43,475 bases of DNA from Bacteroidota bacterium. GTDB taxonomy: Bacteria > Bacteroidota > Ignavibacteria > Ignavibacteriales > Ignavibacteriaceae. The stretch covers positions 1 to 43,475 of the forward strand of contig JAKAKL010000079.1 of the NCBI GenBank assembly GCA_021824565.1. Direction: 5' to 3'. Below are positions 3,113 through 31,046 of this stretch, one piece after another. Every line of letters starts with the position of its first letter. Position 1 is the first letter of the stretch. A program made the translations under genes and the position numbers. Under the pieces are notes generated by a model that had not been told where the DNA came from, did not search any database, and saw nothing but the letters and a program-made list of their open reading frames with translations.

Positions 3113-4315
3113 TTGAATATCCTAATTATTACTCCGCGCATTCCTTATCCGCCCTTCCGAGGCGATAAGTTAAAAATTTATAATATTGCAAAACTGCTGT
3201 CATTAAATAATTCGGTAACTATTCTCACTTTCTTGAGAAATAACAACCAAAAAAAAGATTTAGTAAACATTCAAAAGCACGGGATCAAAGTAGAAACAGT
3301 AAAGCTTTCATTGCTTGGATCTATTTTGAACGCAATATTTGATGTCTTTGGCAGGCTGCCTTTTCAAGCGGCTTTTTATAAATCAAGCAGGATGAAAATA
3401 AAAGTCCGGGAAATTATTAAGAGAGAAAATTCTGATGTTGTATACTACCATTTAATAAGAAGCGCACAGTATCTTTATACAAACGACTCAGAAAGCAAGC
3501 CGCTAAATGTAATTGATTTTACCGATGCGGTTTCTTTGTATTTAAAAAGATTTGCGGACGTTGAAAAAAATCCACTTAAAAAATATTTTATAAACGTTGA
3601 GCAGAAACGAATAGAAAGCTACGAAAAAATAGCTGAAAAATTTCATTCTCTTTTTATATGCTCCGAAGTTGACAAGGATTTTCTTAAGGACAGGGGAATA
3701 AATGCGAACGTAAATATTTTACCCAATGGCATAGATACAGAATATTTTAATTCGGATGGCCTGCCTTTTGAGAAAGATAGAATTATCTTTACAGGCAATA
3801 TGCCTTATTATGCAAATTATGACGCCGCTGTTTATTTTGCCAAAGAGATTTTTCCATTAGTATTAAAGACTATACCTGGAGCGAAATTTTATATTGTAGG
3901 GCAAAAGCCTCCTAAAAAAATAAAACAATTAAAATCCCATAATATATTTGTAACCGGGTTCGTAAAAGATATAAAGGCAGAATATTTAATGAGCGCCGTT
4001 AATGTAGCACCAATGAGATTCGGAGCCGGAACTCTTAATAAGGTTTTAGAGTCTATAGCTCTTGGAGTGCCGGTGGTTGCGACTTCAATGGCTGTCGGGG
4101 GCTTACCTAAAGAACTAAATAAGTATATCTTTGTTTCGGACGATCCGGAAAATTTTGCAAGTAAGATTATTGAGATAATTCAAAATCCTGATCTGCGAGC
4201 CAAATTAATGGAAGAAGGCAAACAGGTAATTAAGGATATGCTAAGCTGGAAAAAAGTAGTTGCTGATTTTGAGCAGTATCTTTCAGAAGAAATATCTAAA
4301 CTAAAATCAAATTAA
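3113..4315 (+). CDS. glycosyltransferase of the EpsH1/PEP-CTERM-associated (TIGR03087-like) group
   Basis: The 400-residue GT-B enzyme begins from a TTG codon with MNILIITPRIPYPPFRGDK, the signature N-terminus of this sugar transferase group. The linker SLFICSEVDKDFL precedes NILPNGIDTEYFN, the classic GT4 hinge. The C-terminal half has FTGNMPYYANYDA, KFYIVGQKPP and the donor motif MRFGAGTLNKVLESIALGVPVVATS with its conserved glutamate. It sits between another GT and a polyprenyl glycosylphosphotransferase, spaced by 45 and 5 bases, so co-transcription is likely. It probably adds a sugar to the undecaprenyl-linked primer made by the downstream enzyme. Donor and acceptor are unknown. Confidence 0.85.
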   Translation: MNILIITPRIPYPPFRGDKLKIYNIAKLLSLNNSVTILTFLRNNNQKKDLVNIQKHGIKVETVKLSLLGSILNAIFDVFGRLPFQAAFYKSSRMKIKVREIIKRENSDVVYYHLIRSAQYLYTNDSESKPLNVIDFTDAVSLYLKRFADVEKNPLKKYFINVEQKRIESYEKIAEKFHSLFICSEVDKDFLKDRGINANVNILPNGIDTEYFNSDGLPFEKDRIIFTGNMPYYANYDAAVYFAKEIFPLVLKTIPGAKFYIVGQKPPKKIKQLKSHNIFVTGFVKDIKAEYLMSAVNVAPMRFGAGTLNKVLESIALGVPVVATSMAVGGLPKELNKYIFVSDDPENFASKIIEIIQNPDLRAKLMEEGKQVIKDMLSWKKVVADFEQYLSEEISKLKSN

Positions 4316-4320
4316 AGAAC

Positions 4321-5721
4321 TTGGATAAAAGATTAGAAAAAATATTAATTCTTGCAATTGATTTTATTACCATAAACCTGGCGTGGTACGTTTATTATCA
4401 GATACGGGTTCAAACAAGGTGGTTCATAATTTTTACGATGCCGGAATTCTACGTCCCGATGGTTGTAGTTTATTTTTACTGGCTTATAATTTTTCTGTTT
4501 GTCGGAATGTACCGCACATGGTTCGCTTCGTCGAGATTAGATGAAATATCCCTTCTCTTCAAAGCAACCTTCGTGGGAATATTCATACTTTTTTTCATAG
4601 TATTTATTGACGATTATATTCATGGGGTTGGTTCATCTATGCGCATATTAATCTTTATTTACTGGGGATTGCTCCTTTTCCTCGTCGGTGCGGGAAGGCT
4701 TTTTGTACGAAGCTTCCAAAGGAGATTATTAATTAAGGGATTCGGCAGAAGAAACACGCTTATCGTAGGGCTTAATCCTAAGGCACGCGAAGTTCATGAT
4801 CAAGTAGTTCACGCCAGAGCGCTCGGTTTAGATATAGTTGGTTATGTATCTCTAAACGGAATAGAGCATGAATTTTTTAATAACACGAAAGTTGTCGGTT
4901 CTATTAAGAATTTAGAAAGCATTATTGACGAACATGATATTAAAGAAGTAATCATTGCTCTCGATAAAGAAGATAGGGATTTTCTTGTTGAGATAATTGC
5001 AAAATGCGAACCTAAAAATGTCGGGTTAAAAATTGTTCCCGATCTTTATGAGGTTTTAAGCGGGCAGGCAAGGACTTCGCAAATATACGGGATGCCGATA
5101 GTTGATATTCTCCCTGAACTTATGCCGGAGTGGGAGAAAAAACTAAAAAGGATTTTTGATATTCTGGTTTCTTTGCTTATACTTCTAATCACTTCGCCGG
5201 TTTTGCTTGCAACGGCAATAGCAATTAAAATTGATTCGCCCGGAGAGGTTTTTTTCAAGCAGGAAAGATGCGGTATCAACGGGAAAATATTTAATATATT
5301 TAAATTTCGTTCGATGAAGAAAGATGCTGAGAAGCATACCGGTCCTGTTTGGTCGCAGAAAGATGATCCGAGAATAACTAAAGTCGGAAAATTCATTCGC
5401 AAAGTACGCATAGATGAGATACCGCAGATGATAAATGTATTGAGAGGCGAAATGAGCGTTATAGGTCCGAGACCGGAGCGACCATACTTTGTGGAAAAAT
5501 TATCGGAGGAAATTCCTTATTATAAAAGAAGATTAAAAGTTCGTCCGGGCGTTACCGGCTGGGCGCAGGTAAAGCACAAGTACGACGAAACAATTGAAGA
5601 TGTAAAGGTGAAGCTGCGGTACGATTTGTTCTATATTGAAAACATGTCGTTGAGAATGGACTTCAAGATATTGTTTAGAACAGTGTTTATTGTTTTACTT
5701 GGCAAGGGACACTATGAATAG
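4321..5721 (+). CDS. exopolysaccharide polyprenyl glycosylphosphotransferase (WbaP/WcaJ type)
   Basis: The 466-residue integral membrane enzyme transfers a sugar-1-phosphate from a nucleotide sugar to undecaprenyl phosphate, the priming step of polysaccharide synthesis. About four membrane helices fill residues 8-130. A CoA-binding-like Rossmann domain (RNTLIVGLN, 144-152) spans 140-265. The bacterial sugar transferase core starts at KRIFDI (277) with a re-entrant helix and an SP pair (292-293). It continues through KQERCGINGKIFNIFKFRSM, the catalytic Asp-Glu pair in RIDEIPQM (D365, E366), GEMSVIGPRPERP and RPGVTGWAQV. All key motifs are present, so the enzyme should be active. The start is TTG, 5 bases after the previous stop. 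Its TAG stop coincides with the left arm of an inverted repeat. Confidence 0.92.
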   Translation: MDKRLEKILILAIDFITINLAWYVYYQIRVQTRWFIIFTMPEFYVPMVVVYFYWLIIFLFVGMYRTWFASSRLDEISLLFKATFVGIFILFFIVFIDDYIHGVGSSMRILIFIYWGLLLFLVGAGRLFVRSFQRRLLIKGFGRRNTLIVGLNPKAREVHDQVVHARALGLDIVGYVSLNGIEHEFFNNTKVVGSIKNLESIIDEHDIKEVIIALDKEDRDFLVEIIAKCEPKNVGLKIVPDLYEVLSGQARTSQIYGMPIVDILPELMPEWEKKLKRIFDILVSLLILLITSPVLLATAIAIKIDSPGEVFFKQERCGINGKIFNIFKFRSMKKDAEKHTGPVWSQKDDPRITKVGKFIRKVRIDEIPQMINVLRGEMSVIGPRPERPYFVEKLSEEIPYYKRRLKVRPGVTGWAQVKHKYDETIEDVKVKLRYDLFYIENMSLRMDFKILFRTVFIVLLGKGHYE

Positions 5722-6240
5722 CGCATAGCTCAAAGAGCATAGTGCTAAGCGCAAAAAGTAATATGTTTGATAAAATGTTGAGTAAATAATTTAAAATGCT
5801 TTGCTCTATGTTCATTGTTTTGTAAAAAAATTAAAATATACCGGAAATAATAATTTTAACTGCAGATGGAAAGTTGAAGTTTAGGTTTCAAGATTTACAG
5901 ATATGGCAGTTCGCGATTGAGATTTGCGATAATCTTCTTGATATTGCTGATTTTTTAGAGACCAAAAGATTATATAGATTTGCTGAGCAGTTAAGAGCGG
6001 CTGCAATGAGTATAAGTAATAATATTGCAGAAGGATCCGGTTCTAAGTCCAATAAAGTTTTGGCAATTATTTAAATTTCGCTAGAAGTTATACATTTGAG
6101 AATACAAACATTTTAATGATTCTTAATAGAAAAAAACTTATAACAGAAGATGTATTGAATAAGCCGGATAAAGAATGCATGATGATAACGAATTTCAAGA
6201 AAACATTATAGCCGCTTAGCTCTTTGCGCTATGCGTTATT
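5717..6240. mobile_element. IVS-like cassette 1: inverted repeats flanking a four-helix-bundle gene
   Basis: The left arm (5717-5753, containing gcgcatagctcaaagagc) and the right arm (6211-6240, containing gctctttgcgctatgcgt) are inverted copies. About 18 consecutive positions match with two differences, then taagcg matches after a 7-base interruption. Between them lies a broken S23/IVS-protein gene. The left arm starts within the stop codon of the upstream sugar transferase. Intervening sequences of 23S rRNA have the same plan (stem arms enclosing an S23 ORF), but no rRNA is present here. Besides the pseudogene, the interior holds only AT-rich sequence. The mobile nature is inferred from structure. 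Confidence 0.5.
5866..6211 (+). pseudogene. four-helix-bundle protein (S23/23S rRNA intervening-sequence protein family), frameshifted
   Basis: Residues such as FRFQDLQIWQFAIEICD and SISNNIAEGSGS are the hallmarks of this family. The intact reading stops at 6074 after about 66 residues. In the next frame the normal C-terminal half follows (FARSYTFENTNILMIL, then MITNFKKTL and a TAG at 6209-6211). Adding one T to the run at about 6055-6058 restores continuity. Adding one A to the run at 5869-5872 also joins the frame to an upstream ATG at 5866; otherwise the start would be the TTG at 5874. Two single-base losses in homopolymers mean either genuine decay or sequencing error. Function in this family is not established. 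An intact relative occurs at 40148-40519. Confidence 0.75.
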
Positions 6241-6270
6241 ACTAAAAGTAGAAATAAATAGATAAAATAG

Positions 6271-6993
6271 ATGGCTGGAAAATCTTTAATAATTATTCCG
6301 ACTTATAACGAGCTTGAAAATATTCAACTGATTATTTCCAATATTCTCGAAGCGTATAAAAACAATCTTGACATATTAATAGTCGACGACAACTCGCCGG
6401 ACGGGACAGGAAATATTGTTGAGGAGCTTAGTAAAACAAACGGAAGAGTATTCCTGATTAGAAGAGAAAAGAAAATGGGACTCGGGACAGCTTACGTGAC
6501 GGGATTTAGATTCGCGTTGAAAAATAATTACGATTTTATTTTTGAAATGGACGCCGACTTTTCGCACGATCCTAAAGAAATAAAAAATTTTTTGAAAGCA
6601 ATAAAAGATCATGACCTTGTACTTGGCAGCCGCTATAAGACTGGAGTCAACGTTATTAATTGGCCTATTAAAAGACTATTGCTTAGTTACTTTGCTAACG
6701 GCTATACAAGGTTTGTTACCGGTATGCCAGTATGCGATGCAACCGGCGGATTTAAATGTTTTAGAAAAGAAGTTCTTCAAGCAATTAATCTTGATAGAAT
6801 TTCGTCCAACGGATACGCTTTCCAAATTGAGATGACTTTCAAAGCCTGGAAGAAAGGATTTAAGATAGTAGAAATCCCGATTGTATTTAATGACCGCATT
6901 AAAGGAACTTCTAAAATGTCGAAGAAGATAGTGCGCGAAGCTTTTTTTATGGTGTGGAAATTAAGATTCAAAAGCATTTTAGGATTTCAATAA
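6271..6993 (+). CDS. polyprenol monophosphomannose synthase (Dpm1-like GT2)
   Basis: The 240-residue protein is a compact GT-A family 2 enzyme. It shows SLIIIPTYNELENI at the N-terminus, LIVDDNSPDGTG (first donor-site aspartates), RREKKMGLGTAYVTGF, the metal-binding EMDADFSHDP, and LGSRYKTG. The pattern is specific for dolichyl/polyprenyl-phosphate mannose synthases, which make lipid-P-mannose from GDP-mannose at the cytoplasmic face. There is no C-terminal GtrA or membrane domain, so it is the soluble short form. It lies downstream of the inverted-repeat cassette and 107 bases before a GT2 fusion gene. The sugar could be glucose or mannose; the fold alone does not decide. Confidence 0.88.
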   Translation: MAGKSLIIIPTYNELENIQLIISNILEAYKNNLDILIVDDNSPDGTGNIVEELSKTNGRVFLIRREKKMGLGTAYVTGFRFALKNNYDFIFEMDADFSHDPKEIKNFLKAIKDHDLVLGSRYKTGVNVINWPIKRLLLSYFANGYTRFVTGMPVCDATGGFKCFRKEVLQAINLDRISSNGYAFQIEMTFKAWKKGFKIVEIPIVFNDRIKGTSKMSKKIVREAFFMVWKLRFKSILGFQ

Positions 6994-10470: not shown

Positions 10471-10485
10471 TGGTATGTTAATTGA
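10471..10485 (+). promoter_or_regulatory. candidate sigma-54 (-24/-12) promoter for the lipoyl/ferredoxin/NrfD operon
   Basis: TGGTATGTTAATTGA resembles the consensus TGGCACG-N4-TTGC, with correct GG to G spacing. It lacks the final C of the -12 GC and has two changes in the -24 box. It lies 37 bases upstream of the first gene, which has a good AAGGAG at 10511-10516. Support comes from the sigma-54-dependent activator encoded at the end of the same cluster. In AT-rich DNA such a partial match can occur by chance. Confidence 0.4.
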
Positions 10486-10522: not shown

Positions 10523-10744
10523 ATGTTAACATTTTTATTAGCACTCGTTTTAATTTTTGCGGCGGTTGATTTATTGGTTATGCTGGTAATTGAGCCGCTT
10601 GCCTTAAAAGAAAAATCAAAAAAAGCCGCAAAGCTGTCCTATCGAAAAAGTATTATTCCCACAATCGACTTAGTCGGAGCTACTATGTACGACGGCGGCA
10701 TTAAGAAAGAGGAAAAACAAAAAGATGCCGGCGAGAAAAAATAG
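10523..10744 (+). CDS. small single-pass membrane protein with a TMYDGG tag
   Basis: The 73-residue protein has a strong ribosome binding site (AAGGAG, 6 bases before ATG). Residues 2-24 form a membrane helix, and the following stretch EPLALKEKSKKAAKLSYRK is strongly basic, so the C-terminus should be cytoplasmic by the positive-inside rule. Residues 54-59 are TMYDGG, preceded by DLVGA. The same tag is present in the two H-protein-like proteins of this operon (192-197 of the next gene; TMLDGG in the fifth gene). I recognise no named family. As first gene of the operon it may anchor or assemble the redox complex through this shared motif. Confidence 0.75.
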   Translation: MLTFLLALVLIFAAVDLLVMLVIEPLALKEKSKKAAKLSYRKSIIPTIDLVGATMYDGGIKKEEKQKDAGEKK

Positions 10745-10785
10745 TCTCTTCGGCTCAGCATAAATTAATTGAAAAAGGCAAATAT

Positions 10786-11454
10786 ATGGTTGGAATATTT
10801 ATTCTTGCAGCATTTCTGTTTTGTATAGTTATAGATATTGTCGTGCTCAAAACGGAAAATAAATCTCACCCTGCTTTTGAAAAAGGAATTCTAGATGATC
10901 GATTGTTATTTAGTAATTTCCATTTAGAAGTACCTGCCGGGTTTTTCTTTTCAAAAGCTCATTCATGGATTCAGGATAATGAGAATGGAACGGTAAAAAT
11001 CGGCTTCGATGATTTTCTATTTAAAACACTGGAGAAACCTGTCTTCTTAAACTTTGCTGAAGTAAATAAAGAAATAAAAAAAGGCGAGCCTATTTTTGAA
11101 ATTGCAAGCGGGAAGAATGCGGTTACGATTCCCTCTCCAATTAGTGGCACTATAAAAGAAGTTAACAAAGACATTTTGAATGAGAAGGTTAGTAACCCGT
11201 ATTTAGATTGGGGCGTTCAACTCGAACCTCAAAAACACAGTGAGGAAATGAAAAATCTGATTCATCCAAAAAATTCCGTCTTCTGGATGAAGAATGAATT
11301 TGATAAACTGAAAAGTTTTCTTAAAAGTAATTTACAAAAAGAAAATATAGCCGGTGTAACTATGTACGATGGCGGTACGGTAATTAACGGAGTTATCTCT
11401 TTTCTTCCCGAAAAAGAGTTTCAAGCATTTAAAAAAGAATTTCTAACATTGTAG
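10786..11454 (+). CDS. membrane-anchored lipoyl/GcvH-like protein with a TMYDGG tag
   Basis: The 222-residue protein has an N-terminal membrane helix (3-21) followed by Lys, suggesting a cytoplasmic C-terminal part. Residues 58-150 align with glycine cleavage H protein: AHSWIQDNENGTVKIGFDDF, then VNKEIKKGEPIFEIASGK, then SPISGTIKEVN and SNPYLDWGVQLEP. Lys110 falls exactly at the lipoylated lysine position, eight residues before the second Pro of PSP. TMYDGG is at 192-197 near the C-terminus. No gcvT or gcvP is present and GcvH is neither anchored nor this long, so glycine cleavage is unlikely. It probably carries a lipoyl arm serving the adjacent ferredoxin and NrfD-like subunit. Lipoylation is inferred from the conserved Lys and not demonstrated. 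Confidence 0.8.
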   Translation: MVGIFILAAFLFCIVIDIVVLKTENKSHPAFEKGILDDRLLFSNFHLEVPAGFFFSKAHSWIQDNENGTVKIGFDDFLFKTLEKPVFLNFAEVNKEIKKGEPIFEIASGKNAVTIPSPISGTIKEVNKDILNEKVSNPYLDWGVQLEPQKHSEEMKNLIHPKNSVFWMKNEFDKLKSFLKSNLQKENIAGVTMYDGGTVINGVISFLPEKEFQAFKKEFLTL

Positions 11455-11465
11455 GTTAAAGAAAA

Positions 11466-12224
11466 ATGTCTAAGAAAAAAGGATTATTATTTGATGTTAC
11501 ACTTTGCATCGGCTGCGGCTCTTGTTATGATGCATGCAAACAAAAAAATAAATTGCCCAGAACGAACAGCAATTTTTTAAGCGATCATTTATCTGCAAAT
11601 ACATTTACTGTAGTTGAACAATACAACGATAAATATGCAAGAAAGATGTGCATGCACTGCGATGAGCCGTCATGCGTTTCAGTATGTCCGGTCGGAGCTT
11701 TTTCAAAAAGCGAGACGGGAGCCGTGTTATACGACGGCGATAAATGCATCGGCTGCAGGTATTGCATGCAGGCATGCCCGCATAAGGTTCCGAGATACGA
11801 ATGGGGAAGAACCCAGCCGCGGGTGAAAAAATGTACTATGTGCGATGATAGAATTAAAGCGGGCAAAATCCCTGCTTGTGCAGAAGCCTGCCCGACAGAA
11901 GCAACTCTCTTCGGCGACTTTGATAAAATTTTTGAGGTGGCTAAAAAGAGAATTAGCGAAAACAAAAGAAATTATTACCCGCATATCTATGGCTTGGACG
12001 AAGCAGGCGGCAGCCATGTTTTAATATTATCTCCAGTGCCTTTTGAACAACTTGGCTATACGCCAAAGCTTCCGAAAGAGCCGATGCCGATGCTAACAAT
12101 GCGTGCTATGGAAAAAATTCCTCCTGTTGTTGGATTAGGCGGAGTTTTTCTCGGCGGAATGTATTGGCTGACTAAAAGAAAAAATCAAATTGCTAAAGAA
12201 GAAAAAGAATTAAAGGAATTATAA
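11466..12224 (+). CDS. HybA/NrfC-like ferredoxin with four [4Fe-4S] sites and a C-terminal membrane anchor
   Basis: The 252-residue protein has sixteen Cys in four sets: 14/17/20/24, 62/65/70/74, 94/97/100/104 and 123/126/138/142. This is the full complement of the HybA/DmsB/NrfC electron-transfer family. A hydrophobic segment at about 218-236 followed by KRKNQ is a C-terminal anchor as in HybA. Unlike HybA there is no twin-arginine signal; the N-terminus MSKKKGLLFD runs straight into the first cluster, so the protein is probably on the cytoplasmic side. It lies 11 bases after the lipoyl-like gene and 4 bases before the NrfD-like gene. It should pass electrons to or from the NrfD-like quinone subunit. 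No catalytic molybdopterin or NiFe subunit is nearby. Confidence 0.88.
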   Translation: MSKKKGLLFDVTLCIGCGSCYDACKQKNKLPRTNSNFLSDHLSANTFTVVEQYNDKYARKMCMHCDEPSCVSVCPVGAFSKSETGAVLYDGDKCIGCRYCMQACPHKVPRYEWGRTQPRVKKCTMCDDRIKAGKIPACAEACPTEATLFGDFDKIFEVAKKRISENKRNYYPHIYGLDEAGGSHVLILSPVPFEQLGYTPKLPKEPMPMLTMRAMEKIPPVVGLGGVFLGGMYWLTKRKNQIAKEEKELKEL

Positions 12225-12228
12225 AATC

Positions 12229-13401
12229 ATGAATGCTGAGAAGTTGTTTAAATTTTCCTTCTGGAAGGTTGTTGCAGTCTTAATAATAATCGCGGGTTTA
12301 ATTTCAACTTATTACAGATTTACCAAAGGCTTAGGAGCTACAACTAACTTAAGCGACGAAGTGCCATGGGGATTATGGATCGGCTTTGATTTCTTAGGCG
12401 TGGGGTTAGCCGCCGCCGGATTTACCATAGCCGCCGCGGTGCATATATTTAATATTCATAAATTTGAACCTATAGTTAGACCCGCTATTTTAACCGCATT
12501 TATTGGATACTCTCTTGTTGTGGGATTATTAATAGTGGACCTTGGACGCCCGGAAAACTTCTGGCATCCATTAGTAATGTGGAATATTCATTCCGTAATG
12601 TTTGAAATTACGTGGTGCATAATTTGTTATTCGACCGTGCTTGTACTTGAATTTGCGCCGGTAGTGCTGGAAAAATTCAAACTTCATGCGCCGATAAAGT
12701 TATTAAGAAAAATTTCAATACCAATTGTAATTGCGGGAGTATTATTTTCAACGCTTCACCAATCATCTTTCGGCTCTTTATATTTAATTGTTCCAGGCAG
12801 ACTTCACCCGCTGTGGTATTCCTCAATATTACCGGTTCATTTTTATATATCATGTATTGCCGCAGGTTTATCTATGATAATCTTTGAATCCTATCTTAAT
12901 ACAAGAGCATTTAATACCGGGCTGTCGATAAATATTTTATCAAAAGCTTCCGCTGCGGTTGTGATAGTTTTGTTAATAGAATTAGTTCTAAAATTTACGG
13001 ATATGGTCTTTTCAAATAAGCTGTACCTGCTCGGCGTACCATCGATGGAGACTTCGCTTTTCTATCTTGAGATAATTATAGGAACGATCATTCCGGTAAT
13101 AATTTTAAGCAGTAAGAAAAATCGAGAAAATAAAATGCTTCTTTTTCTTGCTTCAATCTCAGTTATCTCAGGATTTATTTTAAATCGAATGAACGTTTGC
13201 ATTACTGGAATGGTTGCTTCATCGGGAATAAATTATTTCCCGTCGATTGATGAGATAAACATAACATTTATGCTTGTAGTTCTGGCGATGCTGGGATTTA
13301 AATATGTTGTTCAAACATTCCCGGTCTTTGTTGAAGAAGAAGATAAGACGGTTCAATTGATCGAACTGCCCGAAGCAGAAAACATAATTGCGAGTGAGTG
13401 A
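12229..13401 (+). CDS. NrfD/HybB-type integral membrane quinone-interacting subunit
   Basis: The 390-residue protein has about nine to ten membrane helices. Typical family features are LSDEVPWGLWIGFDFLGVG in the first loop and helix, GRPENFWHPLVMWNIHSVMFE, FSTLHQSSFGSLYLIVPGR, and LNRMNVCITGM near the C-terminus. HybB and NrfD proteins exchange electrons between a ferredoxin partner and membrane quinone. The last 35 residues are acidic and extramembrane. The gene starts 4 bases after the ferredoxin and ends one base before the next ATG, so the pair is translationally close and surely forms one complex. Which partner gives electrons cannot be read from the sequence. Confidence 0.9.
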   Translation: MNAEKLFKFSFWKVVAVLIIIAGLISTYYRFTKGLGATTNLSDEVPWGLWIGFDFLGVGLAAAGFTIAAAVHIFNIHKFEPIVRPAILTAFIGYSLVVGLLIVDLGRPENFWHPLVMWNIHSVMFEITWCIICYSTVLVLEFAPVVLEKFKLHAPIKLLRKISIPIVIAGVLFSTLHQSSFGSLYLIVPGRLHPLWYSSILPVHFYISCIAAGLSMIIFESYLNTRAFNTGLSINILSKASAAVVIVLLIELVLKFTDMVFSNKLYLLGVPSMETSLFYLEIIIGTIIPVIILSSKKNRENKMLLFLASISVISGFILNRMNVCITGMVASSGINYFPSIDEINITFMLVVLAMLGFKYVVQTFPVFVEEEDKTVQLIELPEAENIIASE

Positions 13402-13402
13402 G

Positions 13403-14113
13403 ATGGAAAATAAGTTTAATATTTATCACGACCTTAAATGCATCTGGATGGCTTCTAACATTGTAGATTATAAATTATGCGATAAGGATTTTGACTGTGA
13501 GAATTGTTCCTTCGATAAAGTAATTAGAAATTCTTCTTTTGAAAATGACTCTGATGGTAAGGTGAAAGGAAATATCTTAGATGATGTGCTGGAAAAACTT
13601 CAGGATGTAAATTATGACGAAAAGGTTATATATCTGAAAAATTGTTTAATCATGAAAAGAATTTTTGCGAACACTTTTTACTTAGGTCTTAATCCGATGT
13701 TAAAACCATTCCTCGATAATATATCTTCATTAAAAGAATGCGATCTGGGAAAATATATTTTAAAAGGACAGCCTGTTTTTCAATTCACAGGCGAGTGGGG
13801 AACAGTAACTTTGACATCGCCAATGAATTTCCTAATGTATGATAGAATGACTTCGCCTCACGAAGATATAAGCAAGTCAAAATGGATGGCGATCATAGGC
13901 GCCATTCAACCGGAAATTGATGCGAGCGTGATTGGAAAATCGAGATGGAATGAAATGTTATATAAAACATTTGAAATAATTGATGACATGAAATTAAATG
14001 TCCCCGCAGTAGGCAGTACAATGTTAGACGGCGGAACTAAAATAAAATATCTTTACCAGTTCGCCGGCAAAGATAAATACCAGAGCATTCTTGAATCAAT
14101 GTTAAATCAATAG
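13403..14113 (+). CDS. H-protein-like protein lacking the lipoyl lysine, with a Cys cluster and TMLDGG tag
   Basis: The 236-residue soluble protein starts at the ATG 1 base after the NrfD-like stop; a TTG at 13388 would overlap. The N-terminus has C13 and a C26-x5-C32-x2-C35 set in YKLCDKDFDCENCSFD, a plausible metal or Fe-S site. Residues 93-190 align with the lipoyl-like protein of this operon: KGQPVFQFTGEWGTVTLTSP corresponds to KGEPIFEIASGKNAVTIPSP, so Trp132 replaces the lipoyl lysine. SKWMAIIGAIQPE matches its WGVQLEP strand. TMLDGG is at 206-211. The fold is probably an H-protein domain turned into a docking or sensor subunit. It may bind the partner lipoyl domain or link the complex to control. 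Function unknown. Confidence 0.78.
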   Translation: MENKFNIYHDLKCIWMASNIVDYKLCDKDFDCENCSFDKVIRNSSFENDSDGKVKGNILDDVLEKLQDVNYDEKVIYLKNCLIMKRIFANTFYLGLNPMLKPFLDNISSLKECDLGKYILKGQPVFQFTGEWGTVTLTSPMNFLMYDRMTSPHEDISKSKWMAIIGAIQPEIDASVIGKSRWNEMLYKTFEIIDDMKLNVPAVGSTMLDGGTKIKYLYQFAGKDKYQSILESMLNQ

Positions 14114-14236: not shown

Positions 14237-15829
14237 ATGAAAACGAAAGTGATAAATAGGTTAAGTGTAAGACTGATAATTTCAATATCATTGATTTTAC
14301 TCAGTATTTTATCGGTATACACTTATATAATTATAAAGAACCTCGACAAATATTTAACAGAGGCGCGGTTCCAGAGTGCATATAATATGAGCGACTTGAT
14401 TAAGAAATCAACTCGCTACAGCATGTTATTAAACAGGCGCGAAGACGTTCATGCGATAATTAAAACGCTTGGAACCGAGATCGGTGTTAACGATATAAGA
14501 ATTTATAACAAACAGGGTGTTATAATTTTCTCAACAGACTCATCGCAGATATTTAAGAAAGTAAATCTTAATGCCGAAGCCTGCATAGTTTGCCACAACA
14601 GTTCGGTTCCTCTAAAAAAGCTGTCCAATCAAAATAAAATTAGAATATATAAGAATATTGAGAATAAAAGAGTTCTTGGATTAATTAATCCCATTCAGAA
14701 TGAACCGGATTGTTATAATGCAGCTTGCCATGCTCATTCTCCTAAGGTTCAAATCCTTGGCGTTCTAGATGTTGTAGTTTCTCTTGACGAGCTTGATAAA
14801 ATTATTTCTCATAACACCAGAAATACAATTTTGAATGCGGTGTTAATAATAATTTTTATTTCTCTTTTCTCGTGGCTGTTTATCATTACACTTGTAAATA
14901 AGCCGTTAAAGAAAATGGCAAAAGGCATTGAGGAAATCGGGAATGGAAACTTGAATTATAAAATTGAGCTTCGCACGAAAAATGAATTCGGGCAAATGGC
15001 AAAGCGTTTCAATGAAATGTCCATAAAATTAAATGACGCTTACAGGGAAATAAAAAATTGGTCTGAAACTCTTAACGATAAAGTAAATGAAAAGACTGAA
15101 GAATTAAAAAATATTTATATCCAAGTAAACCAGATTGAAAGATTGGCATCGCTCGGAAAGCTTTCTGCAACCGTTGCGCACGAGCTAAATAATCCTCTCG
15201 AGGGAATCCTTACATACAGCAAACTGATAATAAAAAAACTTACTGCTCTTCAAAAGGACTCTGAATACTCTAAAGTAATTGAATTTCTTGAACTGATCTC
15301 AAGCGAGTCCTCACGCTGCGGCAAGATTGTGAAGGACCTTCTTCTTTTTTCGCATGAAGAAAAAGATATTTTCTCTAAAGAAGATGTTGCGCAGATAATT
15401 GATAAAAGCATTACGCTGATTAAGCATCATCTTGAAATAAATAACATTTCGCTTATAAAAGAATTCCCTGTTGAAACAATCGAAATTAATTGCAACGCGC
15501 AGAAAATTCAGCAAGCCATGATGTCGTTGTTTATAAATTCAATTGAAGCAATGCCGAATGGAGGAAAAATTATTGTAAAACTTAGCCGGGAAAAGGAGCA
15601 GGCTGTTATCAGAATAATTGATGAAGGCACCGGCATTTCTGAAAAAGATTTGCCTCATATTTTTGAGCCGTTTTATTCCACAAAGGAAACAACCAAAGGA
15701 ACAGGGCTTGGGCTTGCTGTAGTCTATGGAATTATTACTAATCATAACGGGCATATCGGAGTTGAAAATACTTCACTGAAGGGGACAACATTTAAAATTA
15801 TTTTGCCGAAAAACGAACACATTAATTAA
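14237..15829 (+). CDS. membrane histidine kinase with a periplasmic haem-type CXXCH/CX4CH sensor domain
   Basis: The 530-residue kinase has membrane helices at about 12-33 and 197-219. The enclosed periplasmic domain contains C116-IVC-H120 (CXXCH) and C159-YNAAC-H165 (CX4CH) followed by AHSP, as in c-type haem-binding sensor domains of related kinases. HAMP (about 220-272) and a coiled coil follow. HisKA has phospho-acceptor H315 in TVAHELNNPLEG. The ATPase domain shows an N-box (NSIEAMPNGG, N434), IDEGTGIS (D462) and GTGLGL. It probably reads periplasmic redox state and phosphorylates the regulator encoded 10 bases downstream. The gene lies 123 bases after the redox operon and probably controls it. 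Confidence 0.9.
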   Translation: MKTKVINRLSVRLIISISLILLSILSVYTYIIIKNLDKYLTEARFQSAYNMSDLIKKSTRYSMLLNRREDVHAIIKTLGTEIGVNDIRIYNKQGVIIFSTDSSQIFKKVNLNAEACIVCHNSSVPLKKLSNQNKIRIYKNIENKRVLGLINPIQNEPDCYNAACHAHSPKVQILGVLDVVVSLDELDKIISHNTRNTILNAVLIIIFISLFSWLFIITLVNKPLKKMAKGIEEIGNGNLNYKIELRTKNEFGQMAKRFNEMSIKLNDAYREIKNWSETLNDKVNEKTEELKNIYIQVNQIERLASLGKLSATVAHELNNPLEGILTYSKLIIKKLTALQKDSEYSKVIEFLELISSESSRCGKIVKDLLLFSHEEKDIFSKEDVAQIIDKSITLIKHHLEINNISLIKEFPVETIEINCNAQKIQQAMMSLFINSIEAMPNGGKIIVKLSREKEQAVIRIIDEGTGISEKDLPHIFEPFYSTKETTKGTGLGLAVVYGIITNHNGHIGVENTSLKGTTFKIILPKNEHIN

Positions 15830-15839
15830 GAGAAAAAAA

Positions 15840-17195
15840 ATGAACACACGAGAGAAAATCTTAATTGTTGACGATGAAAAAATCGTTAGGGAATCACTTT
15901 ATCATTGGTTTGAAGAAGAAGGCTATGAAGTTGATATCGCTGAGGACGGAGAAGCTGCTTTGAAAAAATATGAGAAGCTAAAATTTGATCTTCTTCTTGT
16001 CGATATGAAAATGCCGGGTATGAGCGGGCTTGAATTATTAAGCCGTATAAAAGCCATTGATTGCGAAGCAATTGTAATTTTAATTACGGCTTTTGCATCT
16101 GTGCCGACAGCAATCTCCGCACTTAAGAATGGCGCCTTTGATTATGTTACCAAACCCGTAGACCCCGACGAACTTGCACATCTTGTTCAGAAAGCACTGG
16201 AGCAAAGAGCGCTCCGCCTTGAAAATAAACAGCTAAAAGAAAATATTGATGAAATAATTAAGCCTGATAATTTAATCGGCGAGAGTTATCAGATGAAAAA
16301 GATTTATGAACTTATTCACACAGTTGCTACGACCGATACAACTGTTATGATTCGCGGGGAAAGCGGTACTGGCAAAGAATTAGTGGCGAAAGCGATTCAC
16401 ATAAACAGTAAGCGAAAATATTTTCCAATTATTCCTGTTAACTGCGGCGCATTGGCTGAAACACTTTTAGAAAGCGAATTATTCGGTCATGAAAAAGGCG
16501 CTTTTACCGGCGCTCAATTTAAACGAAAAGGAAAGTTTGAAATGGCTGACGGCGGTACAATCTTTTTAGATGAGATTGGTTCGATCTCTTTAAAAATGCA
16601 GATTGAACTGCTGCGGGTGATAGAAACAAAACAATTCAATCGCGTAGGCGGAAATGAATTAATTAAAAGCGACTTCAGAGTTATAATCGCGACTAATGAA
16701 CCGCTTGAGGATCTTGTAAAAGCCGGCAAGTTCCGGGAAGATCTTTATTACAGGCTGAATGTGTTTTCGATAATCATTCCTCCGCTTAGGGAGAGAAGAG
16801 ACGATATTCAGCTTCTTGCAAATTTCTTTCTTAATAAATTTTCTACCGCGATGAACAAGACTTTGAAAAAAATTTCTAAAGAAGCGATGGAATTTTTAAT
16901 TAACTACGACTGGCATGGAAATGTAAGAGAACTTGAGAATGCTATTGAGCGGGCTGTGGTTGTAGGCAAGTCAAACGAAATTATTGTAGATGATCTTCCT
17001 TTTCATGTTTCGTCAAACAATTTCCCAGTGGATGACAAAAACAAAAGTCTTTCGGCGATGGAAAGAAAATATATCTTAAAAATTCTGAATGAGAACAATT
17101 GGAATATCTCCCGAAGCGCGCAAGTATTGGAAATAGACAGAGTCACGCTATATAATAAAATAAATAAATATAATCTTCGTAAAACAGCATACTGA
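15840..17195 (+). CDS. NtrC-family sigma-54-dependent response regulator
   Basis: The 451-residue regulator has a receiver domain (1-120) with D11, D12, phospho-acceptor D55 and K105. The AAA+ domain has Walker A GESGTGKE (173-180), the sigma-54 contact loop GAFTGA (220-225) and Walker B GGTIFLDE (238-245). A C-terminal Fis-type HTH spans about 412-447 (WNISRSAQVLEIDRVTLYNK). All parts needed to activate sigma-54 RNA polymerase are present. It follows its kinase by 10 bases. The likely target is the candidate -24/-12 site at 10471-10485 before the lipoyl/ferredoxin/NrfD operon; the binding site for the HTH was not identified. Its stop overlaps the next start by one base. Confidence 0.95.
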   Translation: MNTREKILIVDDEKIVRESLYHWFEEEGYEVDIAEDGEAALKKYEKLKFDLLLVDMKMPGMSGLELLSRIKAIDCEAIVILITAFASVPTAISALKNGAFDYVTKPVDPDELAHLVQKALEQRALRLENKQLKENIDEIIKPDNLIGESYQMKKIYELIHTVATTDTTVMIRGESGTGKELVAKAIHINSKRKYFPIIPVNCGALAETLLESELFGHEKGAFTGAQFKRKGKFEMADGGTIFLDEIGSISLKMQIELLRVIETKQFNRVGGNELIKSDFRVIIATNEPLEDLVKAGKFREDLYYRLNVFSIIIPPLRERRDDIQLLANFFLNKFSTAMNKTLKKISKEAMEFLINYDWHGNVRELENAIERAVVVGKSNEIIVDDLPFHVSSNNFPVDDKNKSLSAMERKYILKILNENNWNISRSAQVLEIDRVTLYNKINKYNLRKTAY

Positions 17196-17734
17196 TGGAT
17201 ATCTTTGTGGCGCCTGTAAAATTTTCAAATGCTTTAATGCTGGGCGATCTGATAGCGGAATTATCGAGACGATTTTATTCAAAAATTAATTTGATCGAGC
17301 TTCCTGTAAATATAGAAAATCATATGTCAAAAGAAAGGAAGCAGTATTTTTCAACTTCGATAATTGCAGAGGCAATTAATTTTACTTCGGCATACGACGG
17401 CAAAGTTATCCTTCTTACCGATCTTGATATTTTTGTACCCGTCTTAACTTTTATTTTTGGCGAAGCGCAGTTGAACGGAAAGCATTCGATAGTTTCCGCC
17501 TGCCGTCTTCATGAAGAATTCTATTCAGGCAAATCAGACGATAAAATTTTATTTGAAAGATTGATGAAAGAAATTCTTCACGAGCTTGGGCACAATTTCG
17601 GCTTACGTCATTGCCTTGATTGGGACTGTGTAATGCATTCCTCTCCCGGCATTGAAGAAGTAGATATTAAAGGAAATGCATATTGTAATAAATGCCTTCC
17701 AAAAGTGGAAGGCTGTAAGCAGTATTTTCACTGA
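17195..17734 (+). CDS. amzA: archaemetzincin family zinc metalloprotease
   Basis: The 179-residue protein carries the archaemetzincin signature. HELGHNFGLRH (129-139) gives three zinc-binding His, followed by C140, C145, the Met-turn M147 and the second metal-site Cys C164/C167 (CNKC). A bound structural zinc is typical of the family. Substrates are unknown in bacteria. Its ATG overlaps the TGA of the response regulator (TGATG), so it is translationally coupled to the signalling pair. This unusual placement suggests a role in the redox regulon, though drift into the operon is possible. It ends 16 bases from the convergent kbl. Confidence 0.9.
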   Translation: MDIFVAPVKFSNALMLGDLIAELSRRFYSKINLIELPVNIENHMSKERKQYFSTSIIAEAINFTSAYDGKVILLTDLDIFVPVLTFIFGEAQLNGKHSIVSACRLHEEFYSGKSDDKILFERLMKEILHELGHNFGLRHCLDWDCVMHSSPGIEEVDIKGNAYCNKCLPKVEGCKQYFH

Positions 17735-17750: not shown

Positions 17751-18935
17751 TTAAATGCCGAATTCTTCTTTGACTTCTTTAAATTTTTCAATCGCAAATT
17801 TTAAATCATCTTTCGAGTGAGCTGCAGAAATCTGAGTCCTAATTCTTGCAGTGCCTTTGGGAACGACAGGATAGAAAAAACCGATTACATAAACTCCTTT
17901 TTCAAGCAAGCGTGCCGCCATCTTTTGCGCAAGTACAGCATCGCCAAGCATGATCGGTACGATTGGGTGAATTCCGTTTTTTATATTCAAGCCGGCATTA
18001 GAAATTTCTTCTCTAAAGAATTTCGTATTCTCTTCTAATTTATCACGGAGCCGTGTAGATGATTTCAGAATCTCGATAACTTTTATTGAAGCAGAAATGA
18101 TGCTTGGCGCAACAGTATTTGAAAATAAATATGGTCTTGAACGCTGCCGGAGCAGGTCAATAATTTCTTTCCTGCCGCTTGTATAACCGCCGCTTGCGCC
18201 TCCCAAAGCTTTGCCGAGCGTTCCGGTAATTACATCAACTCTTCCCATTACATCATTATGTTCATGAGTTCCTCTTCCATGTTTTCCCATGAAGCCGACA
18301 GCATGAGAATCATCAATCATAACAAGCGCGCCGTATCTGTCGGCGAGATCGCAAATTGATTTTAAATTTGCGATGCTGCCGTCCATAGAAAATACGCCGT
18401 CGGTTGCTATTAATTTAATTTTATTTTGCGATGCTTCTTTCAGTTTTTCTTCAAGATCGCTCATGTCGTTATTTTTATATCTGAAGCGGTTTGCTTTGCA
18501 AAGACGAATACCGTCTATGATGCTTGCATGATTTAATTCATCGCTGATTATGGCGTCGTTTTCCGAGAGAAGAGTTTCAAATAAGCCGCCGTTGGCGTCA
18601 AAGCATGATGAATAAAGAATAGTATCTTCGGTGCCGAGAAATTCCGAAATTTTTCTCTCAAGTTCTTTATGGATTTCTTGAGTGCCGCAAATAAATCTGA
18701 CCGATGAAAGTCCGTATCCCCATTTATCATAGCTCTCTTTTGCCGCTTTAATTACTTCCGGATTATCTGCGAGCCCGAGATAATTATTAGCGCATAAATT
18801 TAAAACCCTTTGTCCGCCTTTAACCTGTATAAACGAGCTTTGCGGGCTTGAGATTATTCTTTCGTTTTTATATAATCCTTCATTTTCAATTTGCTGAAGA
18901 ATGTCGCTGTAATGATTTCTTATAGATTCGTTCAT
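17751..18935 (-). CDS. kbl: 2-amino-3-ketobutyrate CoA ligase (glycine C-acetyltransferase)
   Basis: The 394-residue PLP enzyme of the alpha-oxoamine synthase family cleaves 2-amino-3-ketobutyrate with CoA to glycine and acetyl-CoA. Visible motifs are [20 protein letters not shown], the PLP aspartate and histidine in [12 protein letters not shown] (208-214), and the Schiff-base lysine K242 in [13 protein letters not shown]. Length matches E. coli Kbl (398). It lies 48 bases downstream of tdh on the same strand, so the two form a threonine catabolic operon. Other family members (KAS-like or serine palmitoyltransferase) are less likely given the tdh partner. Confidence 0.95.
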
Positions 18936-18983
18936 TTTTATCCTCTTTCAAAATTTTGTTTTGATTAGAAAATTAATTGGAAT

Positions 18984-20024
18984 TTATTCTTTAATCCAAT
19001 CTAAAATTACTTTACCGGTGTTTCCGGATTTCATTAACTCAAATCCTTCCAGATAAGATTCATAAGGAAAGCGGTGAGTGATAACAGGTGAAATATTTAA
19101 TCCGCTTTGAATCATTGTCTGCATCTTGTACCACGTTTCAAACATTTCTCTTCCATAAATTCCTTTGAGAGTAAGTCCGTTGAATACAACCGTGTTCCAA
19201 TCTATCGCCGCGCTTTCAGGTAAAATTCCGAGCAGGGCAATCTTTCCGCCGTGACACATAGCAGAGAGCATGCTTTTTAATGCCGCCTGATTTCCCGACA
19301 TTTCTAAGCCGACATCAAAACCTTCTTTCATTTCAAGCTCCGCCATAACGCTATTTAAATTTTCTTTTGCAACATTAACGGCGCGCGTTACTCCCATTTT
19401 TTTTGCAAGCTCTAAACGATAAGGATTAACATCGGTAATTACAACATATCTTGCGCCTGCATGTTTCACTATCGCAGCAGCCATAATTCCGATTGGTCCT
19501 GCGCCTGTTATTAAGACATCTTCGCCGAGCACATCAAACGATAAAGCTGTATGCGTGGCATTTCCAAATGGATCAAAAACGGATAAAATATCTTTCGGAA
19601 TTTTGGGATTGCATTGCCAGACATTAGAAACAGGGATACACAGATATTCTGCAAAGGCACCTGTGCGATTTACTCCAACGCCCATTGTGTTTTTGCAAAG
19701 ATGTCTTCTTCCGGCGCGGCAATTTCTGCAATGTCCGCAAACTATATGTCCTTCACCGCTGACAAGTTCGCCAATCTTAAGATCATGAACGTTGCTTCCA
19801 ATCGCTTCAACTGTACCGACATATTCATGTCCGGTTACCATTGGAACAGGTATGGTCTTTTGCGCCCATTCATCCCAGTTATAGATATGAATATCGGTTC
19901 CGCAAATCGATGTCTTATGAATTTTAATCAATACATCATTTATTCCGACTTCGGGAACGGGAACTTCGTCAAGCCACAGTCCCGGCTTGGAATATTTTTT
20001 AACAAGAGCTTTCATTGTTTTCAT
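18984..20024 (-). CDS. tdh: L-threonine 3-dehydrogenase
   Basis: From the ATG at 20024 the protein is 346 residues ([17 protein letters not shown]); the longer ORF up to 20099 adds 25 residues without family similarity. It is a zinc-dependent medium-chain dehydrogenase. It has the catalytic zinc ligands C41 ([12 protein letters not shown]) and H66-E67 (GHEYVG), a structural zinc set C96/C99/C102/C110, and a Rossmann NAD site ([16 protein letters not shown]). It oxidises threonine to 2-amino-3-ketobutyrate, the substrate of the downstream kbl product. Confidence 0.95.
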
Positions 20025-20162
20025 TATTAAATTCCTTTTTGAGAATTGCTTAATTTGTTGTGTTTCAAAATTATGGATTAAGCCGTTAAACAACAACAAA
20101 AGATTTGTTTATAACGCCGGAAACTATAACCCTTGTTTTGGGGCATAAACAGTTGAAGACTT

Positions 20163-25125: not shown

Positions 25126-25512
25126 TGCTTTTATACTGCGTAAGGCTATACTTTTTTTAAAAACCATATCCTTCCGCAGTGTGTAATGCTTACTTTTTAT
25201 ATAAACCATACCCTTCCGCAGTGTGTAATGCTTACTTTTTATAAAAACCATATCCTTCCGCATGCGTAAGGCTATCCTTTTTTTAAAAACCATGCCCTGT
25301 CGCATACGTAAGCCTATACTTTTTTTGTAAACCATATCCTTCCGCATACGTAAGGCTATCCTTTTTATATAAACCATGCCCTGTCGCATACGTAAGCCTA
25401 TACTTTTTTTGTAAACCATATCCTTCCGCATACGTAAGGCTATCCTTTTTTTAAAAACCATGCCCTTTCACATACGTAAGGCTATCCTTTTTTTAAAAAC
25501 TATACCCTTACA
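25126..25512. repeat. 42-bp minisatellite, about nine units
   Basis: Units run without indels at 25168, 25210, 25252, 25294, 25336, 25378, 25420 and 25462, each 42 bases, with a degenerate unit before and a partial one after. Each unit has the form (atccttccgcatacgtaagg)-like head, ctatcc/ctatac, a T run, then aaaccat. Types alternate: A (atccttccgcat..aaggc) at 25252, 25336, 25420 and B (gccctgtcgcat..aagcc) at 25294, 25378. Two units at 25168 and 25210 carry a cagtgtgtaatgctta variant. Because 42 is a multiple of three, a 121-codon reading frame exists on the minus strand (25461-25096), but there is no ribosome binding site, so I do not call a gene. The rest of the 786-base gap 24978-25763 shows no gene. 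Confidence 0.9.
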
Positions 25513-28949: not shown

Positions 28950-31046
28950 TTATTCTAAAATAATAAAATCTAATTCAGATTTTTCCATATCAACACGAAC
29001 CAATTTAACTTTTACCTTATCGCCGAGCCGGAATTGTTTTTTAGTTGCACGTCCAATTAAGGCATATTTTTTTTCATCATAAACGTAAAAATCTCCCTCT
29101 ATGTCGCGCAGCCTTACCAGACCTTCGGCAAGTATATCAAATATTTTTACGAAAATTCCGAAATGAGTAATGCCTGAAATCAGAGCGTCAAATTCTTCGC
29201 CGAGATGATTCCGAAGATATTCAATCTGCTTTGCCTTGACAGAAAATCTTTCGGCGTCGACTGCATTTCTTTCACAGACTGAAATATGATCGCTTATCTC
29301 TTCAAGCTGCGGCAGAGTATAATTAACGGAAACGCCGTCATCAATATATTTAAACAAAAGCCGGTGAACGATTAGATCGGAATATCTTCTAATTGGAGAT
29401 GTGAAGTGCGTGTAATATTTAAACCCGAGACCATAATGACCGATATTATTAGCAGAATATATTGCCTTTGCCATCGACCTGATTGCGAGTTCATTTACAA
29501 GAACTTCTTCCGGAGTTCCTCTTACTTCTTCAATTAATTTTTGGAACTGGTTTGATCTTGAGTTTAAGGCAGAATCGAATGAATATCCAAGAGACTTTAC
29601 AAACTTCGCAAACTCGTTTATTTTTTCTCCATCCGGCAAGTCATGAACGCGGTAAATAAAAGGCTTCACGTTTCCTTTTTTCGGTGCTGCGATGTGCTTT
29701 GCTGTTATTTGATTTGCAAGCAGCATAAATTCTTCGACAAGCATATTACTTTGCTTAATTTCCTTCTTATAAACACGTGTAGGAACTCCGTTACCATCAA
29801 GCTCAAACTTCACCTCAGGAGTTTCAAATTCGATGCTTCCTTCTTTTAATCTTTTTTTCCTCAAAGTTTGAGCGAGTTTATTAAGCTTAAATATTTCACT
29901 AAAGAAATCGCCTTCACCGCTGTCAATAATTTTCTGGACTTCATCGTAAGTATAACGGCGCTTGCTGCATATGACACTTTTCTTAATTATATAATCTACA
30001 AGTCTGCCGCGGGGAGAAAGCTCTGCTATTACAGAATATGTCAGTCTATCTTTGTTTGGAACCAGCGAGCAGATGTTATTCGATAATTTTTCAGGCAGCA
30101 TCGGGATTACTCTGCCGACGAGATAAACGCTGTTGCCGCGGTTCGCTGCGGTTTGGTCAATTGCGGAATTTACCTTAACGTAATTGCTTACATCTGCAAT
30201 ATGAATTCCAACTGAAAAATTACCATTCTCTAATTCTTCGATAGAAAGTGCGTCGTCAAAATCTTTTGCATCTTCCGGATCAATGGTGAATACTATTTTG
30301 CCGCGGTAATCTAACCTGTACCTAATTTCTTCGTCTGCTATTGTTTCGCTTACGGCTTCCGCTTCTTGAATAACTTCACGGGAAAATTTATAAGGCAGCT
30401 CGAATTCTTTTGCGATTGAAATTACATCTGCATCAAGCGAGCCGGATTTTCCAATTACTTCAATAATTTTCCCTTCGGGGTTTAGCATTGAAGAATCCCA
30501 ATTAATTTTTCCTGCTATAACTTTATCGCCAACAGTAGCGCCGCACAGATCATCCTTGTCAATATAAATATCGCGGTAAAACAGATTATCATCGGGCTTG
30601 ACAAAATAAAACGATTTTGATTTACGGAGAATTCCTACAATTTCTTCTTTGCTTCGCTTTATTACATTGATGATCTGTCCTTCGATATTTTTTCCTTTTT
30701 TGTTTGCGAACAAAGATACTTCAACAGTGTCACCGTGGAATGCAGTTCCCAAATTTCTTGATGAAACAAAAATGTCTCCAAGCCGAGAATCCTTAACAGC
30801 GACGAATCCGAAACCGCCGTTTACAATTTGTAGAACTCCGGTAACGCTGTTTGAAGCAGGCAGCCTGTTTATGCTGTACTGCTTACCGTTTTTGCTGAGA
30901 AAACCTTCTTCAGCCAAATCAAAAAGAACTGATTTCAGAGACTGGTATTCGTGGTCGGAAGTGACATTAATTTTTTTCGCAATTTCTTTGTTTTTAAAAT
31001 TCCGCCCCGGATTTTTTTTAAAGAACGAAATAATTTTCTTTTTCAT
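28950..31046 (-). CDS. rnr: ribonuclease R
   Basis: The 698-residue 3'-to-5' exoribonuclease of the RNase II family degrades structured RNA. An N-terminal winged helix (1-60) and cold-shock domains (about 65-200) are followed by the RNB catalytic domain from about 245, with DPEDAKDFDDA (256-266) supplying the metal-binding aspartates. HFTSPIRRYSDLIVHR and a C-terminal S1 domain (about 615-695, GVRVDMEKSELDF-like end) complete it. The Lys-rich tail of longer RNase R proteins is missing. The start ATG overlaps the stop of tamB (TAATG), so the two are coupled. Confidence 0.96.
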   Translation of the reverse strand: MKKKIISFFKKNPGRNFKNKEIAKKINVTSDHEYQSLKSVLFDLAEEGFLSKNGKQYSINRLPASNSVTGVLQIVNGGFGFVAVKDSRLGDIFVSSRNLGTAFHGDTVEVSLFANKKGKNIEGQIINVIKRSKEEIVGILRKSKSFYFVKPDDNLFYRDIYIDKDDLCGATVGDKVIAGKINWDSSMLNPEGKIIEVIGKSGSLDADVISIAKEFELPYKFSREVIQEAEAVSETIADEEIRYRLDYRGKIVFTIDPEDAKDFDDALSIEELENGNFSVGIHIADVSNYVKVNSAIDQTAANRGNSVYLVGRVIPMLPEKLSNNICSLVPNKDRLTYSVIAELSPRGRLVDYIIKKSVICSKRRYTYDEVQKIIDSGEGDFFSEIFKLNKLAQTLRKKRLKEGSIEFETPEVKFELDGNGVPTRVYKKEIKQSNMLVEEFMLLANQITAKHIAAPKKGNVKPFIYRVHDLPDGEKINEFAKFVKSLGYSFDSALNSRSNQFQKLIEEVRGTPEEVLVNELAIRSMAKAIYSANNIGHYGLGFKYYTHFTSPIRRYSDLIVHRLLFKYIDDGVSVNYTLPQLEEISDHISVCERNAVDAERFSVKAKQIEYLRNHLGEEFDALISGITHFGIFVKIFDILAEGLVRLRDIEGDFYVYDEKKYALIGRATKKQFRLGDKVKVKLVRVDMEKSELDFIILE

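Follow-up and report, generated by a model that had tools for sequence, protein, structure and literature searches.

What does a ferredoxin/NrfD redox pair do when it is encoded with proteins related to the glycine cleavage H-protein, and why do three proteins of the same operon share a six-residue motif? These questions are raised by five closely spaced genes (A to E, positions 10523-14113) on contig JAKAKL010000079.1 of a Bacteroidota bacterium of the family Ignavibacteriaceae (GenBank assembly GCA_021824565.1), of which positions 1 to 43,475 were analyzed as a whole (the window). We find that A to E open a unit of eight genes that continues with a histidine kinase (HK), a sigma-54-dependent response regulator (RR), and an archaemetzincin (Peptidase_M54, here M54), and that this is a real, conserved, and apparently sigma-54-controlled redox unit recurring in several phyla. 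With a probability of roughly 0.55, we read it as a quinone-linked redox complex of the Hmc type that has nonlipoylated H-fold proteins as adaptors and is under the control of its own sensor. The parts of the unit are as follows, with positions in the window.

10471-10485, plus strand: sigma-54-type (-24/-12) promoter, TGGTATGTTAATTGA, beginning 52 bases upstream of the first start codon (ATG).
10523-10744, plus strand: gene A, 73 amino acids, with one transmembrane segment, TMYDGG, and a charged tail.
10786-11454, plus strand: gene B, 222 amino acids, with an N-terminal transmembrane segment, an H-protein fold, and TMYDGG in a low-confidence linker.
11466-12224, plus strand: gene C, a 252-amino-acid iron-sulfur (Fe-S) subunit, HmcB/HybA-like, with no twin-arginine signal and with a C-terminal hydrophobic segment.
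12229-13401, plus strand: gene D, a 390-amino-acid NrfD-like membrane subunit, HmcC/HybB-like.
13403-14113, plus strand: gene E, 236 amino acids, with a Cys4 motif, a degenerate H-protein fold, and TMLDGG.
14237-15829, plus strand: histidine kinase whose sensor region carries the motifs CxxCH (residue 116) and CxxxxCH (residue 159).
15840-17195, plus strand: sigma-54-dependent response regulator (Pfam Response_reg, Sigma54_activat, and HTH_8).
17195-17734, plus strand: archaemetzincin (PF07998, E=9e-25), with an intact HEXXHXXGXXHC..C site.

The coordinates bear out a preliminary description of this DNA, in which A to E are five plus-strand genes separated by 41, 11, 4, and 1 bases, and the motif, TMYDGG in A and B and TMLDGG in E, is present as claimed there. 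That description mentioned neither HK, RR, and M54, which lie directly downstream, nor the promoter; the largest gap anywhere between A and M54 is 123 bases. The A and E proteins reach no Pfam or NCBIfam cutoff. The claim that no catalytic subunit is encoded nearby agrees with our finding that no NiFe or molybdopterin Pfam match was reported among the 28 window proteins searched, a set that leaves some smaller open reading frames and a 1500-amino-acid open reading frame at 31046-35548 outside the search.

Does the unit exist beyond this genome? Scanning with the E alignment yielded 77 loci, 16 of them shorter than 10 kb, in which E is present by construction; by their record titles, these are spread over Ignavibacteria, other Bacteroidetes, Zixibacteria, KSB1, Myxococcales, Acidobacteria, Planctomycetes, and Desulfobacterales. 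(Loci L035-L064, which partly overlap L069-L145, are excluded from these counts and from the tag and M54 counts below, except where named.) B is present in 61 loci, a C-type gene in 63, a D-type gene in 63, HK in 66, RR in 64, and M54 in 52, a tally that pools both types of C and both types of D. A profile search had been proposed to see whether the genes travel together, and they do: B, C, D, and E are found jointly in 56/77 loci, and all seven of B, C, D, E, HK, RR, and M54 in 39/77. Gene A occurs in 16/77 loci and is therefore outside the wider core. By genome, E was found in 29/59, the window's own included. In L146, L151, L158, and L161 the triple of HK, RR, and M54 is found but the locus has no H-like protein; the genes for the protease and the two-component system can thus exist on their own. 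Among the literature matches listed, the titles and opening portions of the abstracts contain no description of this operon.

The folds of B and E are those of the H-protein. B matches Pfam GCV_H (E=1.5e-18), and its AlphaFold2 model (mean predicted local distance difference test score [pLDDT] 83.9, with residues 186-198 below 50) has as its best Foldseek match the H-protein 1onl_A (E=5.6e-10; TM-score 0.86 by target length); the model of E (mean pLDDT 83.5) best matches the H-protein 1htp (E=6.5e-7). The assertion that only two of the three tagged proteins are otherwise related holds, as B and E are paralogues over 178 profile columns including the tag (E=2.2e-30), and those two can therefore share the tag by descent; the match of A to the B profile is confined to the region of the tag (34 columns, E=3.9e-8). 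The lipoyl position was followed in two alignments (A2, 50 B proteins, and A3, 57 E proteins) whose rows are restricted to proteins exceeding set limits of score and length. The column of Lys110 in B is lysine in 6/50 aligned orthologues and the neighboring column (111) in 31/50, and the aligned lipoyl hairpin position in E is tryptophan in 37/57 and lysine in 0/57. Four cysteines of E are invariant in the 57 rows. B and E are H-fold proteins without a conserved lipoyl lysine; they have the same fold as GcvH but differ from it in this respect, in an additional N-terminus (transmembrane in B, Cys4 in E), and in a tagged C-terminus. A separate, ordinary-looking GcvH is encoded in the same genome (L004), as is a fusion protein combining an H-like and a receiver domain (L065, 9279-10427, by Pfam) in which, from reading the sequence, a transmembrane segment precedes the receiver. 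By analogy with this fusion, whose receiver domain must be cytoplasmic, the H domain of B is probably cytoplasmic. A further arrangement is seen in L138 (7947-8876) and other Desulfobacterales loci, where the gene for a 309-amino-acid protein adjoins the HK, RR, and M54 genes; this protein combines an H domain and AADGG with two Cys4-like motifs in succession.

The redox pair itself is most similar to that of the Hmc complex. C is a multi-cluster ferredoxin with HmcB as its best NCBIfam match (266.6 bits, cutoff 420) and HybA as its second (201.6 bits). D belongs to the NrfD/PsrC family (PF03916, E=1.4e-24, 87.7 bits against a cutoff of 25.8), with 10 hydrophobic segments in the D family, and its best and second NCBIfam matches are HmcC (299.8 bits, cutoff 550) and HybB (278 bits). 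The Hmc complex of sulfate reducers thus has Fe-S and NrfD-type subunits in common with the window unit, which differs from it in having no multiheme HmcA gene within or next to the stretch from A to M54, in the absence of a twin-arginine (Tat) signal from C, and in the addition of H-fold subunits, a heme-type sensor kinase, a regulator, and an archaemetzincin. [NiFe]-hydrogenase 2, the source of the HybA and HybB matches, differs in its large subunit, none being found beside C and D; the only match to the NiFe large-subunit profile (PF00374) in the genome is a weak one (E=1.4e-4). In six genomes of the same family (G152, G013, G018, G026, G032, and G168), all with relatives of E or B, the NiFe large subunit has no match, and across the class the NiFe hydrogenase family is matched in 91/197 genomes, in some of them weakly. 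We conclude that the unit resembles a quinone-linked pair of the Hmc/Hyb type and, on the features tested, is not a member of the Hmc group. Multiheme cytochromes are found in a subset of loci, with a 13- to 18-heme cytochrome beside a ferredoxin/NrfD pair in 16 and a tetraheme gene between E and the kinase in 6.

The Fe-S subunits of Hmc and Hyb complexes carry Tat export signals. A twin-arginine motif is present in 19/20 Hmc-type C2 proteins versus 3/51 C-type proteins, and the window's C is without one. The charge pattern of D is nonetheless the same as that of its Hmc-type paralogue D2, with lysine plus arginine on alternate loops of 17.1 versus 5.4 (45 D proteins) and 18.2 versus 4.2 (9 D2 proteins). 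An inverted NrfD, a topology expected for SoeC according to a passage in PMC8076601, is accordingly not supported as the cause of a ferredoxin lacking a Tat signal.

The regulatory genes fit a sigma-54 circuit. Scored against the sigma-54 consensus, the window promoter fits 9/10 positions, and sites fitting at least 9/10 precede the operon in 26/52 loci versus 1.3 expected from random stretches of those loci; for each of the 52 loci with enough upstream sequence (the window and loci among L069-L126), the 200 bases preceding the first gene were scanned. Upstream of the second Fe-S gene (C2) a sigma-54-like site is present in 1/20 regions, and upstream of the kinase in 1/48 under a stricter score. 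The stricter scan requires GC at -12 and misses the window site, which the relaxed scan finds, and the two scans were scored differently. Because of the sites upstream of the operon, the neighboring activator probably controls A to E directly. Both heme-type motifs of the kinase, CxxCH and CxxxxCH, are present in 53/55 orthologous kinases. RR contains EMADGG, and similar ADGG stretches recur in related regulators; this we presume to be part of the sigma-54 AAA+ core, and it is not counted as a tag.

From this gene content and these folds we infer how the unit may work. C and D would form a pair of the Hmc/HybAB type that exchanges electrons with quinone, and because no dedicated catalytic subunit was found, this pair probably has a soluble carrier or a c-type cytochrome as its redox partner. 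B and E would serve as adaptors, E with a putative metal site formed by its Cys4 motif. The kinase, with two heme-c-type sensor motifs that may bind heme, would phosphorylate the adjacent sigma-54 activator, which in turn would switch on A to E, such that a suitable redox state, once perceived by the sensor, would lead to assembly of the complex. TMxDGG would be a flexible linear motif recognized in all three proteins by the same partner. The unit would then be a recurring, redox-regulated complex, present in several phyla, that uses the glycine cleavage H fold without a conserved lipoyl site, and H-fold proteins of this kind are prone to annotation as glycine cleavage proteins.

Several observations weigh against this reading of the unit as a self-regulated Hmc-type complex. 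First, C and D score below the NCBIfam equivalog cutoffs for HmcB and HmcC. Second, C has no export signal while D keeps the charge pattern of D2, and the two are in conflict over the side on which C docks; C either binds NrfD from the cytoplasm or is exported without a signal of its own. Third, in other families of the class many E-bearing genomes also have NiFe hydrogenases, and a HybOC-type hydrogenase as the missing partner is therefore disfavored only for the host's family. Fourth, Desulfobacterales loci (e.g., L138, L139, L140, L141, L144, and L145) retain HK, RR, M54, and a Cys4-H protein with no ferredoxin/NrfD pair in the locus, and ferredoxin and NrfD are therefore not an invariant core.

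What, then, reads the tag? A T-M-x-D-G-G codon pattern occurs three times in the 4.6-Mb genome, in A, B, and E, and the reversed control pattern occurs 0 times. The tag is conserved, with DGG kept in 50/50 B and 55/57 E proteins, figures that describe the closer relatives admitted to the alignments. Strict TMxDGG is found in 28/50 B, 33/57 E, and 17/17 A proteins, with T, M, D, G, and G each invariant in the 17 aligned A orthologues. The E alignment omits the E proteins of 21 loci, of which seven, all Planctomycete, are without DGG (L127, L128, L130, L131, L134, L136, and L142), one is a fragment (L113), and 13 have DGG; the B alignment omits those of 13 loci, including six full-length proteins without DGG (L087, L089, L095, L127, L134, and L136). 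In the counts by locus, by tree, and among H-like proteins that follow, a tag is DGG in the last 75 residues, which is looser than TMxDGG.

A possible reader, which we advance tentatively, is the archaemetzincin. TMxDGG, with DGG as its core, would be a recognition or cleavage site, and M54 would cut or bind A, B, and E in their flexible linkers as a step of maturation or switch-off. The window M54 scores 88.2 bits against the PF07998 cutoff of 24.4 and has the full motif HEXXHXXGXXHCX4CXM...CXXC, as given for MEROPS M54 in PMC3427221, differing from that family in a last spacer of 16 rather than 17 residues and in being encoded with HK and RR; the active-site motif is present in 46/50 family members. 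The tag is located in a low-confidence linker of both the B and the E models. M54 is present in the genomes of 64/68 tagged loci versus 0/9 untagged loci (Fisher 4e-9, kinship ignored), and the presence of HK and RR does not separate the two groups; M54 status was assigned for 50 of the 77 loci by genome-wide search, with genome completeness not stated, for 25 by reading the locus, and for two (L069 and L070) from G006 and G011. Among H-like proteins of loci L069-L166 (at least 190 amino acids, at least 60 bits, and a complete C-terminus), all 106 encoded within 9 kb of an M54 gene carry DGG; where the locus has no M54, 29/46 do, and all 17 lacking DGG are in genomes where no M54 was found. 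Likewise, of the 197 genomes of the class, 57 have E at 110 bits or more and 56 of these have M54 above its cutoff, versus 27/140 of the remainder; in 46 of the 56, E and M54 are within 6 kb on one contig, and in the other 10 they are on different contigs. The 110-bit cut was our choice, because at E<=0.001 the E profile has matches in 194/197 genomes, with ordinary GcvH as the probable cause.

The same data also contain points against a protease site. Independent losses are few: the tag changes five times on the best E tree, at least two of these changes being on firm branches, and an independent-pair sign test is not significant. M54 changes 10 times on the E tree (82 rows, from which the L113 fragment was dropped beforehand). 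In a search of Planctomycetota for further tag losses, 14/148 genomes match at E<=1e-15, three of them above 80 bits. Two tagless E paralogues adjoin M54 (L051 and L053), four tagged loci are in genomes without a detected M54 (L093, a metagenome-assembled genome 81% complete; L095; L098; and L132, with a masked stretch beside RR), and an H-like neighbor is absent from some HK-RR-M54 sets. Passages of PMC3427221 report that two archaeal archaemetzincins were inactive on the substrates tested, suggest very stringent substrate specificity, and state that very little is known of the biological importance of the family. However, the archaeal AMZ-tk is active on casein, as stated in a portion of PMC4681839, and others act on casein or synthetic peptides; the family therefore does not always need a special motif. 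The link between tag and M54, as seen in these sequence comparisons, is suggestive and not proven. If it is correct, a protease family about which little is understood would gain a native substrate, and an Hmc-type complex would have an assembly or signaling step gated by a protease. The six-residue motif, conserved and shared by three products of one operon, is a concrete candidate for the M54 target.

We consider it doubtful that the complex is itself the sensor, with ferredoxin and NrfD reporting the redox state of quinone or cytochrome to the kinase through the H-fold adaptors and with energy conservation secondary. Such a role would be in keeping with the fusion of an H-like domain to a receiver domain, with the Desulfobacterales loci in which HK, RR, M54, and the Cys4-H protein persist without a redox pair, and with the heme-type motifs of the kinases. 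Against this, a second input is superfluous for a kinase that has a heme-type sensor of its own, and the sigma-54 site makes A to E look like the output of the regulator.

The preliminary description suggested a docking role for the tag, but it is unlikely that TMxDGG attaches A, B, and E to the ferredoxin/NrfD pair. In favor of such a role is the occurrence of the motif in three proteins of one operon. Window-type C and D genes are commoner in tagged loci (54/68 versus 4/9, p=0.036), a weak association; when any ferredoxin or NrfD gene is counted, tagged and untagged loci are alike (57/68 versus 8/9, p=1), such that M54 separates the two groups and these genes do not. Moreover, the tag is retained in Desulfobacterales loci, L097, and L157, none of which has ferredoxin or NrfD genes in the locus, and the seven Planctomycete loci named above have such genes and no tag. 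Least probable by far is a lipoyl arm on Lys110 that shuttles electrons between the ferredoxin/NrfD pair and a further partner in a membrane lipoyl-quinone module; B has the H-protein fold and the window's own B has lysine at the lipoyl position, but the idea is rejected on the lysine conservation across B and E given above. What survives of the earlier interpretation is the co-traveling of the genes, the conservation of the tag, and the finding of no NiFe or molybdopterin subunit beside A to E in the window, and what does not is the lipoyl arm and the docking role of the tag.

A second cluster in the same genome (L065, 3173-10427, on contig C47) encodes a Tat-type Fe-S protein, NrfD, a cytochrome with 13 CxxCH motifs, a kinase that has CxxCH in its sensor and an insert with weak similarity to a zinc ribbon, and two apparent fusions of receiver and H-like domains, one recognized by Pfam and the other by its match to B. 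The Hmc-like part, with the Fe-S/NrfD pair and the 13-CxxCH cytochrome, is at 3173-6494. A cluster of this kind divergently adjoins the A to E operon in several relatives (e.g., L038 and L071). Elsewhere in the window, a tandem array of 8.8 copies of a 42-base unit (25139-25509) gives rise to a repetitive open reading frame. Downstream of M54, on the minus strand at 17751-20099, are a gene of the class I/II aminotransferase family and one of the zinc alcohol dehydrogenase family, a pair that we take to resemble kbl/tdh, and similar genes are found downstream in L038.

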